Notes: generated by a model not told the origin, from the letters alone. A stretch of 26,810 nt of DNA from a virus (IMGVR_UViG_3300045119_000379:1-26810); one strand, 5' to 3'. Shown: positions 1-10,757, numbered from the stretch's first letter. A program made the numbers and translations.

Positions 1-176
1 CGATCGTGGCTGTGCTGCAGCCACAGACTGGAGAGGTTGATCCCGACGGCACCGCCGATCAGGGTCCACTCCCCCACCTCGAACACAAACCAGCCAGTGA
101 GGATCGAGGCGACGGCGCAACCCGCCGCCTCAGCGCACAGCGCGAGGCCCCAGATGAAGAGTCGGTGGCTGCTCAT
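1..176 (-). CDS. Small membrane protein, 3' end beyond window
   Basis: The ATG at 176 overlaps the stop of the phosphoesterase gene (ATGA), so this is the next cistron of the leftward operon. The visible 58 codons begin MSSHRLFIWGLALCAEAA and run off the left edge without a stop. Two hydrophobic stretches (about residues 6-30 and 36-52) are separated by a short acidic turn (FEVGEW), which suggests a two-helix inner-membrane hairpin. I do not recognise a family. Its place in a repressor-headed operon makes a role in the lysogen possible, for example superinfection exclusion, but nothing in the visible sequence shows this. Confidence 0.6.
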   Translation of the reverse strand, partial: MSSHRLFIWGLALCAEAAGCAVASILTGWFVFEVGEWTLIGGAVGINLSSLWLQHSHD

Positions 177-736
177 GCCGCCAGCTCCGCGATCTCCTCG
201 AACGAGACCGGGGTGAAGTTCCACGCATCGACGCCGACGTGGACCAGCCCAGGAGCGGAGCGCACCGCAGAGTGGGTGTGTCCGTGGACGATCGGCAGGT
301 CTCGCCAGGGGCGGAACGCCGCGTAGGTGTCGCCGTGGCGCTGGACGTCGGCCCCGGCCGGTGGGAAGTGGCAGAGCCGCATGAGCTGGCCCCCGATCGG
401 CACGACCACCGTCGGGGCGAGGACGGCAATGCCTGCTGCCTCGTAGCGTCGGACCGCCGTGGCGATCTTGCCGCGGGACGGGTGGCAGAGGTCGTGGTTG
501 CCGGGGACGAGCCGCTTGCGCCCCGCGAGTCGGGGGGCGTACCGCTCGGCCATCGGCAGCGACAGCGACAGGTCGCCCACGATGTAGACGGTGTCGGTCG
601 GGCCGACCCAGAGATTCCACCTGTCCACCAGCACCTCCCCCATCTCCTCGACGTCGCGGAACGGCCGGTTGCAGTGCCGTATGATGGCGGCGTGGCCGAA
701 GTGCTGGTCGCTGGTGGCCCACCTGCGCCCGCTCAT
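173..736 (-). CDS. Calcineurin-like metallophosphoesterase
   Basis: This 187-residue protein carries the full metal-binding set of the calcineurin-like phosphoesterase superfamily: D10 and H12 in TSDQHFGH, D55 in VGDLS, N80-H81-D82 in PGNHD, H123 in LCHFPP and H151/H153/H155 in HGHTH. Such enzymes use two metal ions to hydrolyse phosphomonoesters, phosphodiesters or cyclic nucleotides; the substrate here cannot be read from sequence. The ATG at 736 was chosen because it overlaps the upstream stop (ATGA) and places the SDxHFGH motif at the usual distance from the N terminus; an in-frame upstream extension overlaps the HTH gene and looks non-coding. Single-domain versions are common in phages, with nucleotide or RNA-end processing as usual suggestions. 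Family confidence is high, specific role unknown. Confidence 0.9.
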   Translation of the reverse strand: MSGRRWATSDQHFGHAAIIRHCNRPFRDVEEMGEVLVDRWNLWVGPTDTVYIVGDLSLSLPMAERYAPRLAGRKRLVPGNHDLCHPSRGKIATAVRRYEAAGIAVLAPTVVVPIGGQLMRLCHFPPAGADVQRHGDTYAAFRPWRDLPIVHGHTHSAVRSAPGLVHVGVDAWNFTPVSFEEIAELAA

Positions 737-1020
737 GGGTGCGCCTCGTGGTGCCTCCCGGCCGCGAGCCCGGCTCGATACTGCGCCTCGAACCGCAGCC
801 ATATTCGCGGTGTGATCCCCGTGGCGGCGGCCAACCGAGCCGCGATGTCGTGGGTGAGCGGCAGGTCTCCGGCGAGGAGGGCGGCCACCGATGCCTCGTC
901 CCACCGCCCGGCCGCGACGGCGAGCACCTTGGGCGACACGTGCATGTCGTCCATCCACTCCTGCAGCGTCTCTCCCGGGCAGCACACCCAGTCGGGATCC
1001 CAGGGCACCGAGGTGCTCAC
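733..1020 (-). CDS. HigA/VapI-type helix-turn-helix protein
   Basis: A 95-residue XRE-type DNA-binding protein of the HigA/VapI antitoxin class. The family pattern is visible in order: PGETLQEWMDDMHVSP (helix 1 and turn), an SVAALLAGDLPLTHDIAARL recognition region, then ATGITPRIWLRFEAQYRAGL, which matches the family's usual ending of a TGIP-x-WL motif followed by a Q-Y-rich helix. The start is GTG at 1020, overlapping the upstream stop (GTGA). No HigB-like toxin gene lies beside it; the neighbours are a Cys4 protein and a phosphoesterase. It may be an orphan regulator, or an antitoxin-like partner for a neighbour. Fold confidence is high; a toxin-antitoxin role is conjecture. Confidence 0.85.
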   Translation of the reverse strand: MSTSVPWDPDWVCCPGETLQEWMDDMHVSPKVLAVAAGRWDEASVAALLAGDLPLTHDIAARLAAATGITPRIWLRFEAQYRAGLAAGRHHEAHP

Positions 1021-1277
1021 GGGCCTGCCTCCGGCAGGAGGACGACCGCATCCAGCAGGCGGCGCAGGTTCTCGCTGCCCAGAAGTTCCTCTGCCTCAGC
1101 CGGTGTCGGGCGGCGCTGGGTGAGGTCGTCGGCGAAGATCAGCAGGCCGCCGCAGCGGACGCAGATGCCGCCGTCCCCTGGCTTCGGGACCGCGATGCCG
1201 GTGGGATCACTGACCGCGTCGAGGAGCTTCCCGCACCCGTACGGGCACGACACCGGCGGCACGTGGGAGGTTCTCAC
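1017..1277 (-). CDS. Cys4 zinc-ribbon-like protein, copy B
   Basis: An 86-residue protein with two Cys pairs, CPYGCG near residue 11 and CVRCG near residue 34, which would form a small zinc ribbon. A C-terminal helical part (RRPTPAEAEELL then LRRLLDAVVLL) follows. The GTG at 1277 overlaps the upstream stop (GTGA), so translation is probably coupled. The same plan, including GDGGIC-x2-CG and RRPTPAEAEELL, occurs in the gene at 1634-1936 (GDAGIC-x2-CG, RRPEPDEVAKLL), so the two look like paralogues on either side of an unrelated gene. Small zinc ribbons bind nucleic acid or protein; no specific function can be named. Confidence 0.75.
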   Translation of the reverse strand: MRTSHVPPVSCPYGCGKLLDAVSDPTGIAVPKPGDGGICVRCGGLLIFADDLTQRRPTPAEAEELLGSENLRRLLDAVVLLPEAGP

Positions 1278-1633
1278 GGCTCGCCCTCGTCGGCCGACGC
1301 TGCAACGTGACGATCCATCATCGCAAGCTCGTCGGCCTGCTGTGTCGGAGTGAGGCTCTGCCAGTAGGTTTCCCACTGCTCGCCCGAGTCGTCTTCGTCG
1401 GCGCCGAGCCACTCGACGTAGCGGCCTACTGCGGCGTCAACCTCAGGACTGTGCGGCGAGCACTCCAGGACGAGGTCCAGCGTGGTCTGGTGCGGGTCTG
1501 GGGGCAGGACGACGACGTTGGACGGTGGTGGCGCCACGGACCGCGCAGGCGTCTTCTCGCCCCGGTGCAGCCGGGACCGCCTGGACTTGCTGCGGGGCCA
1601 GTCCTGGGGGCGCATGTCCTCGAACCTGGGCAC
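1274..1633 (-). CDS. Hypothetical acidic protein
   Basis: The longest reading gives 119 residues from a GTG at 1633, directly after the TAG of the upstream gene and just downstream of a 15-G tract that could act as a G-rich ribosome-binding sequence. The ATG at 1615 (MRPQDWPRSK) is an alternative start with a GAGG only two bases away. The N-terminal third is basic (KSRRSRLHRGEK); the rest is acidic and probably helical (VDAAVGRYVEWLGADEDD, WETYWQSLTPTQQADELAM). I recognise no domain. The GTGA overlap with the next gene supports expression as part of the operon. Confidence 0.65.
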   Translation of the reverse strand: MPRFEDMRPQDWPRSKSRRSRLHRGEKTPARSVAPPPSNVVVLPPDPHQTTLDLVLECSPHSPEVDAAVGRYVEWLGADEDDSGEQWETYWQSLTPTQQADELAMMDRHVAASADEGEP

Positions 1634-1936
1634 CTACCCCCCCCCCCCCCCGGAACTTTCACCATCGGGGTCGCGGAGGCGTGCGACGAGGTCGAGTCCA
1701 CGGATCAGGTCGGGGTCGGTGAGGAGCTTGGCGACCTCGTCAGGCTCCGGCCGACGGGCCTGCCCGTCGGGGGCGTACATGAAGACGTAGCCGCATTCCC
1801 CGCAGATGCCAGCGTCTCCCGCGGTGGGGGGCGGGCTGTCCATCCGATCGCCGGTGATGCCGCTGGTGATGTTGAGAACGCGACTCAGGATGATGCCGCA
1901 GCGCGGGCACGGCGACTCGGGGTGGGTGGCGACCAC
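1634..1936 (-). CDS. Cys4 zinc-ribbon-like protein, copy A, ending in poly-Gly
   Basis: A 100-residue protein with CPRCG near residue 10 and CGECG near residue 46, probably a small zinc ribbon, followed by a helical segment (RRPEPDEVAKLL). It resembles the 86-residue protein at 1017-1277 in motif spacing and C-terminal helix. The GTG at 1936 has GGGGGAG upstream at suitable spacing; this start overlaps the 3' end of the repressor gene by 52 bases. The last five codons are GGG, made by an unbroken 15-G run that meets a TAG at once. One base gained or lost in that run would open either of the other two frames, so the C terminus is likely to vary or to be mis-assembled. Confidence 0.7.
   Translation of the reverse strand: MVATHPESPCPRCGIILSRVLNITSGITGDRMDSPPPTAGDAGICGECGYVFMYAPDGQARRPEPDEVAKLLTDPDLIRGLDLVARLRDPDGESSGGGGG
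1637..1651. repeat. 15-base C/G homopolymer
   Basis: Fifteen consecutive C on the plus strand (15 G in the coding strand of the leftward operon). No other run of this length was seen in the window. It lies at the very end of one gene and immediately before the next start codon, so changes in length alter the C terminus of the first and the spacing of a G-rich Shine-Dalgarno-like sequence for the second. Confidence 0.95.
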
Positions 1937-2439
1937 TCGTGCTCCCCCATTCCACCTGAGGGACGACCGCCGCGTCGGCGGGCCTCCCTACGGACGGCCG
2001 GTGGCACGGGCCGTCCGTCTGGACTGGTGTCTACGTCCGGCAGACGGGCATCTCCAGCCCGGTCCGACGGACTGTCGTCGCCGATCTCGTGGCGCTCACC
2101 TCGGTGCGGCATCTCGGGGAGGTCGCCGAGGGCGATCCACGCAATGTCGTGGTCGAAAGCGTACCCCCACGCCTCGGTGATCTTGATAGAGACCCCCTTG
2201 AGGTCCCGAGGCACCGCCTTGTCGTCCTCCCAGTTGCGCCAGGTCTGATCGGACACGCCGATAGTCCGTGCAGCACTAGCAGAACTGATCCGCTCCGCGG
2301 TCAACAGCCACCGGAGGCGTTGACCGAAGGTCGCCGTTGGCAGCGCGATGTAGCGCTGTGGCGCGCGACCTTCGGACGTGCCGTCTCGGGACACGGGGGA
2401 GGCCCCTTCCTGTCGGTGCAGACGCCGCGGAGACGACAT
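1885..2439 (-). CDS. Helix-turn-helix phage repressor (immunity candidate)
   Basis: An up to 184-residue protein with an XRE-like domain at about residues 38-105: TFGQRLRWLLTAERIS, then SAARTIGVSDQTWRNWEDD (helix-turn-helix with the usual S-x-x-T-W-x-x-W-E pattern) and a helical end (IKITEAWGYAFDHDIAWIALGD). The C-terminal 75 residues are polar, Pro/Arg/Asp-rich and probably disordered; there is no S24 self-cleaving peptidase domain, so classical RecA-driven cleavage is not expected. The gene is divergent from the early operon across a 103-bp control region, which is the normal place for an immunity repressor. Start choice: ATG at 2439 sits about six bases after a CATACC -10-like hexamer (possibly leaderless); GTG at 2394 has a good GGAAGGGG Shine-Dalgarno and is a real alternative. 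Confidence 0.85.
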   Translation of the reverse strand: MSSPRRLHRQEGASPVSRDGTSEGRAPQRYIALPTATFGQRLRWLLTAERISSASAARTIGVSDQTWRNWEDDKAVPRDLKGVSIKITEAWGYAFDHDIAWIALGDLPEMPHRGERHEIGDDSPSDRAGDARLPDVDTSPDGRPVPPAVRREARRRGGRPSGGMGEHEWSPPTPSRRARAAASS

Positions 2440-2444
2440 CTGCC

Positions 2445-2482
2445 GGTATGGGCAGAGTGGAACACCCCTCGTTTCTTGTCAA
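2445..2482 (-). promoter_or_regulatory. Candidate leftward (repressor) promoter
   Basis: On the minus strand TTGACA lies at 2482-2477. A weak CACTCT falls 17 bases downstream (2459-2454), and a CATACC at 2450-2445 ends six bases before the repressor ATG. CATACC is the same hexamer that serves as the -10 candidate on the rightward side. The spacing from TTGACA to CATACC is too long for one classical promoter, so either the first pair or CATACC alone may be used. Confidence 0.4.
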
Positions 2483-2514
2483 TACCAACACGCCGGGGCA
2501 CATACGTTGACAAG
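2475..2514. promoter_or_regulatory. Inverted-repeat operator between divergent promoters
   Basis: CTTGTCAA (2475-2482) and TTGACAAG (2507-2514) form a perfect 8-bp inverted repeat with centres 32 bp apart, about three helical turns. Each arm contains the TTGACA -35 hexamer of the promoter facing away from the centre. A protein bound to both arms would cover both -35 boxes. The repressor at 1885-2439 and the HTH protein at 2543-2770 are the obvious ligands. Confidence 0.6.
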
Positions 2515-2536
2515 TGGGGATAACCCCCTCATACCT
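2507..2536 (+). promoter_or_regulatory. Rightward early promoter, probably leaderless
   Basis: TTGACA at 2507-2512 is followed after 17 bases by CATACC (2530-2535). The expected transcription start, about 7-8 bases further on, coincides with the ATG at 2543, and there is no Shine-Dalgarno sequence before that ATG. A leaderless transcript, common in actinobacteria and their phages, is the simplest reading. The segment also holds a small dyad, GGGG-ATAA-CCCC, at about 2517-2528. Confidence 0.65.
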
Positions 2537-2542
2537 GTGGAC

Positions 2543-2770
2543 ATGACCCAGGTTCCCCAGCAACTCACCACAAGCGAGGCCGCGTCCGAGCTGGGGGTAT
2601 CCACCGAGACGGTGCGCCGCTGGTGCGATCAGGGGTTGCTTGAGTGCTACCGGCTGCCAGGCCGTCACCGGCGGGTGAGCGCGGCTGCCGTCGAGGCGCT
2701 GATCGGGCACGGCGTGACTCCCCGCAACACCGTCGGCGTCCCGCCCCGGCCCGCAGCGGCGGTGGCCTGA
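2543..2770 (+). CDS. MerR-like HTH protein (excisionase or Cro-like)
   Basis: A 75-residue protein with the short winged-HTH pattern of the excisionase/MerR-like (HTH_17) class: LTTSEAASELGVSTETVRRW (helix 1-turn-helix 2), CDQGLLECYRLPGRHRRVS (wing with the G-R-H-R-R basic tip) and AAAVEALI. The C-terminal 20 residues are Pro/Ala-rich. It is the first gene of the rightward operon and probably starts at the transcription start. Proteins of this type act as excisionases (recombination directionality factors) or as early regulators; as first gene next to the repressor operator, a Cro-like role fits equally well. The stop overlaps the next start (TGATG). Confidence 0.8.
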   Translation: MTQVPQQLTTSEAASELGVSTETVRRWCDQGLLECYRLPGRHRRVSAAAVEALIGHGVTPRNTVGVPPRPAAAVA

Positions 2771-2853
2771 TGCTCGACGTCCGGGGCGTGCTCGGCCTTG
2801 CCGTCCTGGCCCTCGTGGTCATCGTGATCTTGCACCTGCTCGGTGTGCTGTGA
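2770..2853 (+). CDS. 27-residue single-helix membrane microprotein
   Basis: The ATG at 2770 shares a base with the upstream stop, and the stop at 2851-2853 overlaps the next GTG (GTGA), so this very short frame is held by two couplings. It encodes 27 residues, almost all one hydrophobic helix (VLGLAVLALVVIVILHLLGVL) after a four-residue polar start. The double overlap is the main reason for believing it is translated. Function unknown; early phage membrane microproteins sometimes alter the host envelope or energy state. Confidence 0.6.
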   Translation: MLDVRGVLGLAVLALVVIVILHLLGVL

Positions 2854-3113
2854 CCGCCGCGCCCTACCAGCGCACCGCCAGTGAGCAGGCGACCCGCGAC
2901 GCGCTGGCACTGGCCTCCGAGGTCGCCCTGCTGGACCGCCAGCACGTCCTCTCCGACGCGATCACGGCGAGGACCGAAGAGCGGGACCGGATGACCCGGG
3001 ACGCCGCCGGGACCCGGGCCGTGCTCGGAGAGGTGCGGCACGACAGCGGGTTTGACGGACTCTCCCTCGCTACCCGGACCCTTGTCACCGATCGCCTGCG
3101 GGGTCTACGGTGA
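2850..3113 (+). CDS. Hypothetical helical early protein
   Basis: An 87-residue protein starting at GTG 2850, which overlaps the stop of the membrane microprotein, and ending in a GTGA overlap with the resolvase gene. It is rich in Ala, Arg, Asp and Glu and appears almost wholly helical (QATRDALALASEVALLDRQ, TARTEERDRMTRDAAG), with coiled-coil-like spacing. No domain is recognised. Its place directly before a Holliday-junction resolvase may suggest a link to DNA recombination, but this rests on position only. Confidence 0.65.
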   Translation: MTAAPYQRTASEQATRDALALASEVALLDRQHVLSDAITARTEERDRMTRDAAGTRAVLGEVRHDSGFDGLSLATRTLVTDRLRGLR

Positions 3114-9179: not shown

Positions 9180-9325
9180 AGACGATCAAGGAACGGGCAA
9201 AGGAGATCGCCGATTCCTGGCCGCCGTTCACCGAGGAACAACTCAGGCTCGGGCGTGCGCTGATCCAGCGGTCGGCCAGTCGACGTCAACCGAATCCGGG
9301 TCGAAGCCGGGACCGCGCCGCGTGA
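9176..9325 (+). CDS. Small actinophage-type protein next to integrase
   Basis: A 49-residue protein from GTG 9176, overlapping the upstream stop (GTGA) and preceded by GAGGAGGG. It begins with a short helix (KTIKERAKEIADSWPPFTEE) and a second helix (QLRLGRALIQR), then a basic tail. The I-A-x-x-W-P-P-x-x-x-E-Q pattern is often seen in very small proteins of actinobacteria and their mobile elements; the function is unknown to me. Its last 83 bases overlap the 3' end of the convergent integrase gene on the other strand. Confidence 0.6.
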   Translation: MKTIKERAKEIADSWPPFTEEQLRLGRALIQRSASRRQPNPGRSRDRAA

Positions 9326-10700
9326 CGGGCAGGATCCGCACGCGCATCCCGACGCCGTCCAGGAAATTGTGCTTCTCCTCGACCAGCATGCCCGCCCACG
9401 TCGACGCCGCCTGCTCGGTGTTTGCGAGGGCGTCCAGCAGCGCCGGGTCAATGTTGATTTGGCGCGGGCGTGCCCGCTTCTCGGCGTCGGCCAGCTTCGG
9501 GCGCAGCCCGGCAGTGATCCGCGAAAGCTGCGCGCCGGTGATCTCTTCCATCTCAAAGAGATCGGCAGCCTCAGCAAGGCGCGCCCGGATCGCGTCTGCT
9601 GCGTCAGCGGCAGCTCGCGCCCCGGTGTCATCGACGAGGAAGAGTGCGCGGGCGTCCGGCCGGGACAGCTTGTCGACCACGGCCGCGTTGATGAGCGCGT
9701 CCACGTAGTCCTCACGACGCCCGACACAGCCGTGGTGGTTGCAGGTGTAGAGCGGCCCGTCTGCGCGGACGTTCACCCGCAGGACCGAGCCGCAGGGGCC
9801 GCACTCTCCGACGCCGAAGGTCAGCATGTGCGCTCGACGTCCAGCGTGCTTGCGGGTCTTCCGTCGTGCCGGGTCGGAGAGCAACGCCACCACGCGGGTG
9901 TGCTTGTCCTGGTCTACGAGGGCGGGCCATGCCGCCTTTGAGAACGCCTTCCCGCCCACTGTGCGGATCCCGACGTTTGCCGGGCGAATGGCGATCCGAT
10001 GAGTAACCGACTGGTACCACCTCCCACCGTTGCGCGGGCTGGGGATCCCGCGCTCAGTGAGGTCTTGTGTGATCGAATACTGACCCTCGCCCGCAAGGAG
10101 CCGGTCCACGATCTCTCGCACGATCGGCGCCTGCTCAGGGTGCTCGACGTCATCCCAGCCGATGCGGTGGCCGCCCTGGTCGAAGAGGTACTCCCGGCGC
10201 CACCCGAACGCAACGCGACCGTTGGCGCGCCCTTCCTCGGCCCGCTGTCGCGCCTCGCGTGCGATGCGCTCCCCCTTGACTTCACTCTCGGCGGTGTCGA
10301 CCTCCCCCATGATCCCGCCGATCATCCGGCCCTGCGCGTCGGAGAAGTCGATGTCTAGGCCCTTGACACAGACGAGCCCCACACCCTTCGCCTGGAACAG
10401 CTCGAAACCTTCGGCGCGCTCCCGCCGGTTACGCCATATCCGGGACTGCATGTAGACCACGACGTGCCGGACTTCACCACGCCCGACGGCCGCCACGAGG
10501 GAGGCGTACCCGGGCCGGTTGTCCTTCTTGGACGCCGTGATGTCGTTGTCCTGGAACACATCTGTGATGTTCAGGCCGCGCCTTTTCGCCTCGGCGTGGC
10601 AGTCCTCCAGCTGGCGTGTGACGCCCCGCTGAAGGTCCCTCGGGTCCTCTGAGATCCGGACGTACAGGGCGCACTCGCTGTCATGGTCCGGTCTGCTCAT
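9243..10700 (-). CDS. int: Large serine integrase
   Basis: A 485-residue large serine recombinase. The resolvase domain shows YVRIS with nucleophile S17, DNDITASKKDNRPGY at 51-65, SRIWR at 86-90 and a long dimer-helix region (GEVDTAESEVKGERIAREAR). The recombinase domain follows (FGWRREY, ERGIPSPRNGGRWYQSVTHRI), then a zinc ribbon with C300-x2-C303 and C320-x4-C325 and a coiled-coil region (about 360-420). This enzyme joins attP and attB for integration and, with a directionality factor, excises the prophage. ATG 10700 was preferred over the in-frame GTG 10721, which lies inside the attP-like dyad; neither has a strong Shine-Dalgarno. It points left, towards and against the early operon. Confidence 0.96.
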   Translation of the reverse strand: MSRPDHDSECALYVRISEDPRDLQRGVTRQLEDCHAEAKRRGLNITDVFQDNDITASKKDNRPGYASLVAAVGRGEVRHVVVYMQSRIWRNRRERAEGFELFQAKGVGLVCVKGLDIDFSDAQGRMIGGIMGEVDTAESEVKGERIAREARQRAEEGRANGRVAFGWRREYLFDQGGHRIGWDDVEHPEQAPIVREIVDRLLAGEGQYSITQDLTERGIPSPRNGGRWYQSVTHRIAIRPANVGIRTVGGKAFSKAAWPALVDQDKHTRVVALLSDPARRKTRKHAGRRAHMLTFGVGECGPCGSVLRVNVRADGPLYTCNHHGCVGRREDYVDALINAAVVDKLSRPDARALFLVDDTGARAAADAADAIRARLAEAADLFEMEEITGAQLSRITAGLRPKLADAEKRARPRQINIDPALLDALANTEQAASTWAGMLVEEKHNFLDGVGMRVRILPVTRRGPGFDPDSVDVDWPTAGSAHARA

Positions 10701-10717
10701 GCACTGAAGGTACCCCA

Positions 10718-10757
10718 CCACTAGCTAACCTTAGGAAACGGTGAGGTTCGTTAGTGG
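10718..10757. other. Candidate attP (imperfect inverted repeat)
   Basis: CCACTAGCTAACCT (10718-10731) and AGGTTCGTTAGTGG (10744-10757) are inverted copies matching at 12 of 14 positions, around a 12-base centre. The dyad begins 18 bp upstream of the integrase ATG. A site of about 40-50 bp with partial two-fold symmetry beside int is what serine-integrase attP sites look like. An operator for int control could look the same. The crossover dinucleotide cannot be assigned from sequence alone. Confidence 0.6.

Follow-up and report, generated by a model that had tools for sequence, protein, structure and literature searches.

Seven open reading frames (ORFs) fill the first 2,439 nucleotides (nt) of IMGVR_UViG_3300045119_000379, all on the minus strand: a repressor gene and, behind it, six genes that are referred to here as the cargo. 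The window, meaning the whole stretch of 26,810 nt that was analysed, is a 26.8-kb virus fragment from IMG/VR with 68% G+C and probably represents nearly the whole genome of a small temperate actinophage. The block at 1-2439 forms the terminal end of this genome, past the immunity region and opposite the early genes, and its left end is cut by the end of the contig. A reading made from the DNA alone (the sequence-only reading) had described six genes behind a repressor on the same strand, and this is what was found.

Organization of the repressor-headed block

The cargo genes follow the repressor (P0001) in the order CysA, acidic orphan, CysB, HigA-like protein, metallophosphoesterase and membrane-protein fragment (Table 1). 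Codon-position G+C is coding-like in all six, with third-position values (GC3) of 0.84-0.91. The junctions are tight. Four of the six are 4-nt overlaps, GTGA between the acidic gene and cysB and between cysB and the HigA-like gene, ATGA between the HigA-like and phosphoesterase genes and between the phosphoesterase and membrane-protein genes. Overlaps of this kind had been claimed for nearly all junctions; the other two differ, the repressor and cysA overlapping by 52 nt and cysA abutting the acidic gene exactly (TAG/GTG). A scan for terminators found nothing.

P0001 matches phrog_2328, annotated 'transcriptional repressor', at 2.5e-9 and the immunity repressor of Brevibacterium phage AGM (tblastn 7e-3, phmmer 1.1e-6). 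Its Cro/C1-type helix-turn-helix (HTH) and its divergence from an early HTH/excisionase gene are those of an immunity repressor. The 103-nt gap between the two divergent genes contains an inverted repeat with perfect 8-bp arms, each carrying an outward-facing TTGACA. The perfect half-site occurs in the window at just these two places, and the repeat is a candidate operator. RNA structure in the gap is no better than in shuffled sequences. Brevibacterium phages AGM1-AGM16 also have a related repressor and an excisionase gene that point away from each other; however, one small ORF and a 198-nt gene annotated as integrase lie behind it, without the cargo described here.

From about residue 113 onward (the last ~70 residues; 1885-2103, minus strand), the repressor frame has no third-position G+C peak, and within the 52-nt overlap GC3 is 1.0 in the CysA frame. 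Since the CysA frame is coding-like there and the repressor frame is not, the repressor tail is either unconstrained or mis-framed through a sequence error (frameshift).

Table 1. Features of the block and of its surroundings in the window
Feature	Position	Strand	Basis or remark
Membrane protein P0007, first 58 residues only	3..176	-	Hydrophobic throughout; gene cut by contig end
Calcineurin-like metallophosphoesterase P0006, 187 residues	173..736	-	phrog_547, 1.4e-38
HigA-family HTH protein P0005, 95 residues	733..1020	-	NCBIfam TIGR02607 and PDB HigA
CysB, Cys4 zinc-ribbon protein P0004, 86 residues	1017..1277	-	phrog_24566, 2.9e-5
Acidic orphan P0003, 119 residues	1274..1633	-	GTG start right after cysA stop; isoelectric point 4.7; GC3 0.84
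CysA, Cys4 zinc-ribbon protein P0002, 100 residues	1634..1936	-	CPRC and CGEC knuckles; CysB paralogue; phrog_16769, 3e-3
15-nt G homopolymer (C on plus strand)	1637..1651	-	3' end of cysA, immediately before the cysA stop that abuts the acidic start
Cro/C1-type repressor P0001, 184 residues	1885..2439	-	phrog_2328 and AGM immunity repressor matches
Inverted repeat CTTGTCAA-24 nt-TTGACAAG, candidate operator	2475..2514		Between repressor and HTH gene
Excisionase/MerR-type HTH_17 protein	2543..2770	+	Pfam HTH_17, 7.5e-13; phrog_66 'excisionase and regulator', 1.3e-8
Serine integrase	9243-10721	-	Annotation of window genes

The remainder of the window is laid out as follows. Read on the minus strand from the high-coordinate end, it encodes the terminase large subunit, portal, head protease, major head protein and head-tail adaptor, then tail genes including the tape measure, lysis genes and the serine integrase. 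On the plus strand, from 2543 to ~9180, the excisionase/MerR-type HTH gene is followed by genes for a RuvC-like resolvase, an exonuclease and a primase/polymerase; relatives of the primase occur in Arthrobacter phages of the Bridgettevirus group and in prophages of several actinomycete genera. The integrase belongs to the serine type, yet an excisionase-type HTH gene stands beside the repressor; this gene may encode an early regulator or possibly a directionality factor of an unusual kind.

The cargo proteins and their relatives elsewhere

CysA and CysB are paralogues, with phmmer values of 5e-8 and 1e-7 (against 26,048 ORFs) and 40% identity, and the two related Cys4 proteins of the sequence-only reading are borne out. 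CysB has two CxxC knuckles and the match to phrog_24566 given in Table 1; CysA reaches just 0.041 with this profile, yet is the paralogue of CysB. By sequence, CysB resembles gp28 of Mycobacterium phage Marvin, a phrog_24566 member, which is also the best named viral neighbour of the modest CysB model (predicted local distance difference test, pLDDT, 70; template-modelling score, TM, 0.72). The model consists of a short beta segment bearing the second CxxC and a helical tail. Marvin gp28 has the same size and CxxC...CxxC layout, but it occurs only once, among the small ORFs of a left-arm block, and not beside a repressor. Neither the acidic P0003 nor P0007 has a phage match at E<=1, and P0007 matches no family. 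Hydrophobicity throughout P0007 agrees with the earlier call of a membrane protein, although it is a 58-residue fragment of a gene that runs off the contig.

The prediction of a HigA-like HTH protein agrees with matches of P0005 to the NCBIfam HigA model TIGR02607 (7.9e-9; at 35.2 bits, below the curated cutoff of 47.7) and to solved HigA structures (PDB 4mcx, 1.4e-8). The cognate HigB toxin normally adjoins higA, and a RelE/ParE-family toxin adjoins the nearest actinomycete plasmid relative of P0005. Here, the upstream neighbour is a zinc ribbon, not HigB. The HigB families PF05015 and PF09907 were not found anywhere in the window, while positive controls were detected. P0005 thus shares with HigBA modules the HigA fold and a family match below the cutoff, whereas HigB is missing both upstream and elsewhere in the window, and a HigBA toxin-antitoxin module was rejected on this ground.

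P0006 aligns with phrog_547 over residues 2-185, and its metal ligands D10, H12, D55, N80, H81, H123, H153 and H155 are invariant; the earlier assignment as a phosphoesterase is therefore sound. Its model (pLDDT 87.7) is closest in the PDB to 1xm7, an Aquifex protein of unknown function, then to PptH and LpxH. Relatives of the phrog_547 type occur in 1,031 phage records and in very different contexts. Those of Streptomyces phage Annadreamy (gp221) and Arthrobacter phage Liebe (gp66) share 37%-44% identity over the whole protein and keep all metal ligands, but neither is behind a repressor. In the 125-130-kb Streptomyces phages, phrog_547 is not beside a repressor and lies outside any repressor operon. 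The benefit of the family to phages is a general one, and its presence says little on prophage defence. Gene 66 of Liebe adjoins an HNH gene. In Microbacterium phage SuMoo (L116, 3983-6051), the phrog_547 phosphoesterase gene 74 is shortly upstream of a gene for an RtcB-like RNA ligase, an arrangement hinting at a role of phrog_547 in RNA-end repair.

Two phage phosphoesterases with known roles belong to another family, phrog_221. Bxb1 gp47 is reportedly the recombination directionality (excision) factor for the Bxb1 integrase. For gp48 of mycobacteriophage A10ZJ24, early expression and a role against host defence have been reported (PMC12287305). P0006 shares with both the enzyme superfamily and its signature motifs, but it falls in a different PHROG, is shorter (187 against 255 residues) and gives no significant pairwise alignment. 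P0006 as an excision or counter-defence factor of the phrog_221 type was rejected, as no phrog_221 match was obtained and BLASTP returned E values of 0.5-0.7 on motif scraps only. Judged by this comparison, the roles of gp47 and gp48 cannot be transferred to P0006.

To look for the block elsewhere, phmmer was run with every gene against 90 loci besides the window (12 with relatives of the phosphoesterase, 73 with relatives of the primase and 5 named phages). Relatives were obtained only for the phosphoesterase, the flanking early genes and, weakly, the repressor. CysA, CysB and the HigA-like protein had none among the 90 loci, and the acidic gene had just one chance-level match. In 12 genomic phosphoesterase neighbourhoods, which are short (~1.5 kb per side), none of the other cargo lay alongside. 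That the other cargo does not travel with the phosphoesterase in these 12 viral and 12 genomic neighbourhoods is as expected for independent genes. P0001, P0004 and P0005 had no relatives in viral contigs, and in actinomycete genomes P0001 gave only weak partial matches. The zinc-ribbon alignment recovered only the Marvin group from viral contigs and one weak partial match from 397 actinomycete genomes. For the short proteins these absences are soft, as no genome with a certain member served as control. The sequence-only reading had proposed a search for the same gene set beside other repressors as a check, and had named a lack of conservation in any other phage as refuting it. In the loci examined, the set was found neither beside another repressor nor in about 110 related loci, within what divergence and the contents of the collections allow such searches to recover.

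Two loci, L050 and L047, keep the related repressor/HTH pair but have a tyrosine integrase behind the repressor in place of the present cargo; the slot behind the repressor is therefore a variable position. Taken with the lack of relatives of the set, this makes the cargo private to the present phage so far. In these pairs (L050, 4225-5570; L047, 2829-4065), the tyrosine integrase is directly behind the repressor and in L050 overlaps it, a layout that may reflect integration-dependent immunity. These phages with related repressors also carry further phosphoesterase-like ORFs (L050, 2224-3429; L047, 1188-2219), and behind each of these lies a small conserved ORF (NIVEERA..HYG).

A poly-G tract at the end of cysA

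The oddest feature of 1-2439, absent from the sequence-only reading, is the run of 15 G at the 3' end of cysA. The longest other run in the window is 7, 0.004 runs of at least 15 are expected from base frequencies, and G/C runs in related loci totalling 1.78 Mb reach 8 at most. Both other frames read on across the start of the acidic gene for dozens of codons. The tract is, as in phase-variable loci, a long homopolymer at a place where slippage changes the reading frame. On gain or loss of one G, CysA would read past its stop and across the acidic GTG, which would alter the CysA C terminus and uncouple translation of the acidic gene. The tract shows no better RNA structure than shuffled sequences. 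Neither other copies of the site nor tract-length variants were found in a scan of IMG/VR viral contigs from which near-identical records may be omitted.

The tract could act as a slippage switch inside a prophage-expressed operon, with cargo expression then varying among lysogens of a single phage, but we consider this quite unlikely. We know of no simple-sequence switch over prophage cargo in an actinophage, and a limited literature search found none. An assembly or sequencing fault is possible. A poly-G assembly misjoin is less likely, because the coding frames enter and leave the tract cleanly and joins by the usual assembly k-mers would need a longer run. In bacteria, reports on Helicobacter canadensis (PMC2823697) and Mycobacterium tuberculosis (PMC11898584) describe simple-repeat tracts near gene ends that switch C termini or expression.

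Proposed co-expression with the repressor and the question of defence

The gene content, order and tight coupling of the block at the genome end suggest that this small temperate actinophage carries a mosaic accessory ('moron') operon, co-transcribed with the immunity repressor in the prophage (probability about 0.6). A promoter in the divergent gap would drive the repressor and the cargo leftward, and the repressor, by binding the TTGTCAA/TTGACAA inverted repeat, would shut the rightward early genes. Downstream genes would be translated through coupling at the 4-nt overlaps. The products would act independently, not as one machine. The HigA-like protein may be an orphan regulator or may act as an antitoxin on HigB-type toxins of the host, the phosphoesterase may be a small nucleotide or RNA-end phosphodiesterase that would benefit the phage whatever the setting, and the zinc ribbons may be nucleic-acid or protein adaptors.

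Some points weigh against this interpretation. No full match to a sigma-70 promoter was recognised in 1-3000, and the transcription unit is for this reason inferred. With the left end of the operon missing, the contig may lack the gene of a functional partner, such as a toxin or an effector. The missing relatives, above all those of the orphan genes, may also stem from sampling and divergence.

Alternatively, the block could be an end-of-genome accessory region that is expressed on infection or induction, for counter-defence or for nucleotide or RNA salvage, and not mainly in the prophage. Its terminal position, opposite the early genes, would suit such a role, as would the relatives of P0006 in end or early regions of other phages (Liebe gene 66, SuMoo gene 74) and the early-expressed A10ZJ24 gp48, a different phosphoesterase. 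However, the shared strand and tight junctions favour co-expression with the repressor, and no separate promoter was recognised. We regard this alternative as unlikely.

The sequence-only reading had gone further, suggesting a regulator-effector-membrane set as an arrangement worth testing. Its operon-like block behind a repressor is supported, and this repressor diverges from an excisionase-type HTH gene, but the defence role, which it offered as inference, finds no support beyond position. In its full form, this proposal makes the whole operon one prophage defence or superinfection-exclusion system, with the HigA-like protein as regulator, the phosphoesterase as effector and the membrane protein as the part that delivers or anchors it. 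The position behind the repressor and the presence of a membrane protein are compatible with such a system, and genes 43-44 of Gordonia phage CarolAnn, cargo cotranscribed with the repressor and lambda rexAB-like, demonstrate that the arrangement can carry defence (PMC6426606). As in the present block, the CarolAnn cargo is on the repressor's strand, directly behind it, and includes a membrane protein. It is nevertheless unrelated. A pair of the RexAB/CarolAnn type (a RexA/DUF4747-like protein with a RexB-like membrane protein) was not found here, Pfam scans of the block being negative for DUF4747/RexA-like matches and P0007, though a fragment, having no phage match. CarolAnn 43-44 is a precedent for cotranscription only. 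None of the seven proteins matched a PADLOC family at E<=1, the window has no HigB, the gene set is conserved nowhere searched, phosphoesterases of this family are widespread in large phages outside repressor operons, and the membrane gene is only a fragment. A single defence system is accordingly improbable. CarolAnn 43-44, together with Sbash and the related lysogens described with it (PMC6426596), further show that a defence role neither requires linkage to the repressor nor follows from it.

Finally, the phage has both a serine integrase and a phosphoesterase, but that P0006 is the directionality factor of this integrase, as gp47 is for Bxb1, is scarcely credible, given its phrog_547 membership without significant alignment to the phrog_221 proteins gp47 and gp48, the destabilisation of lysogeny that an excision factor behind the repressor would bring and the excisionase-type HTH gene already present at 2543-2770.

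Read as an accessory operon co-transcribed with the repressor, the block is one more unlinked cargo set in a known repressor-linked pattern, and it warns against inferring defence from position alone. If the poly-G tract is variable, it would represent a simple-sequence switch controlling prophage cargo.

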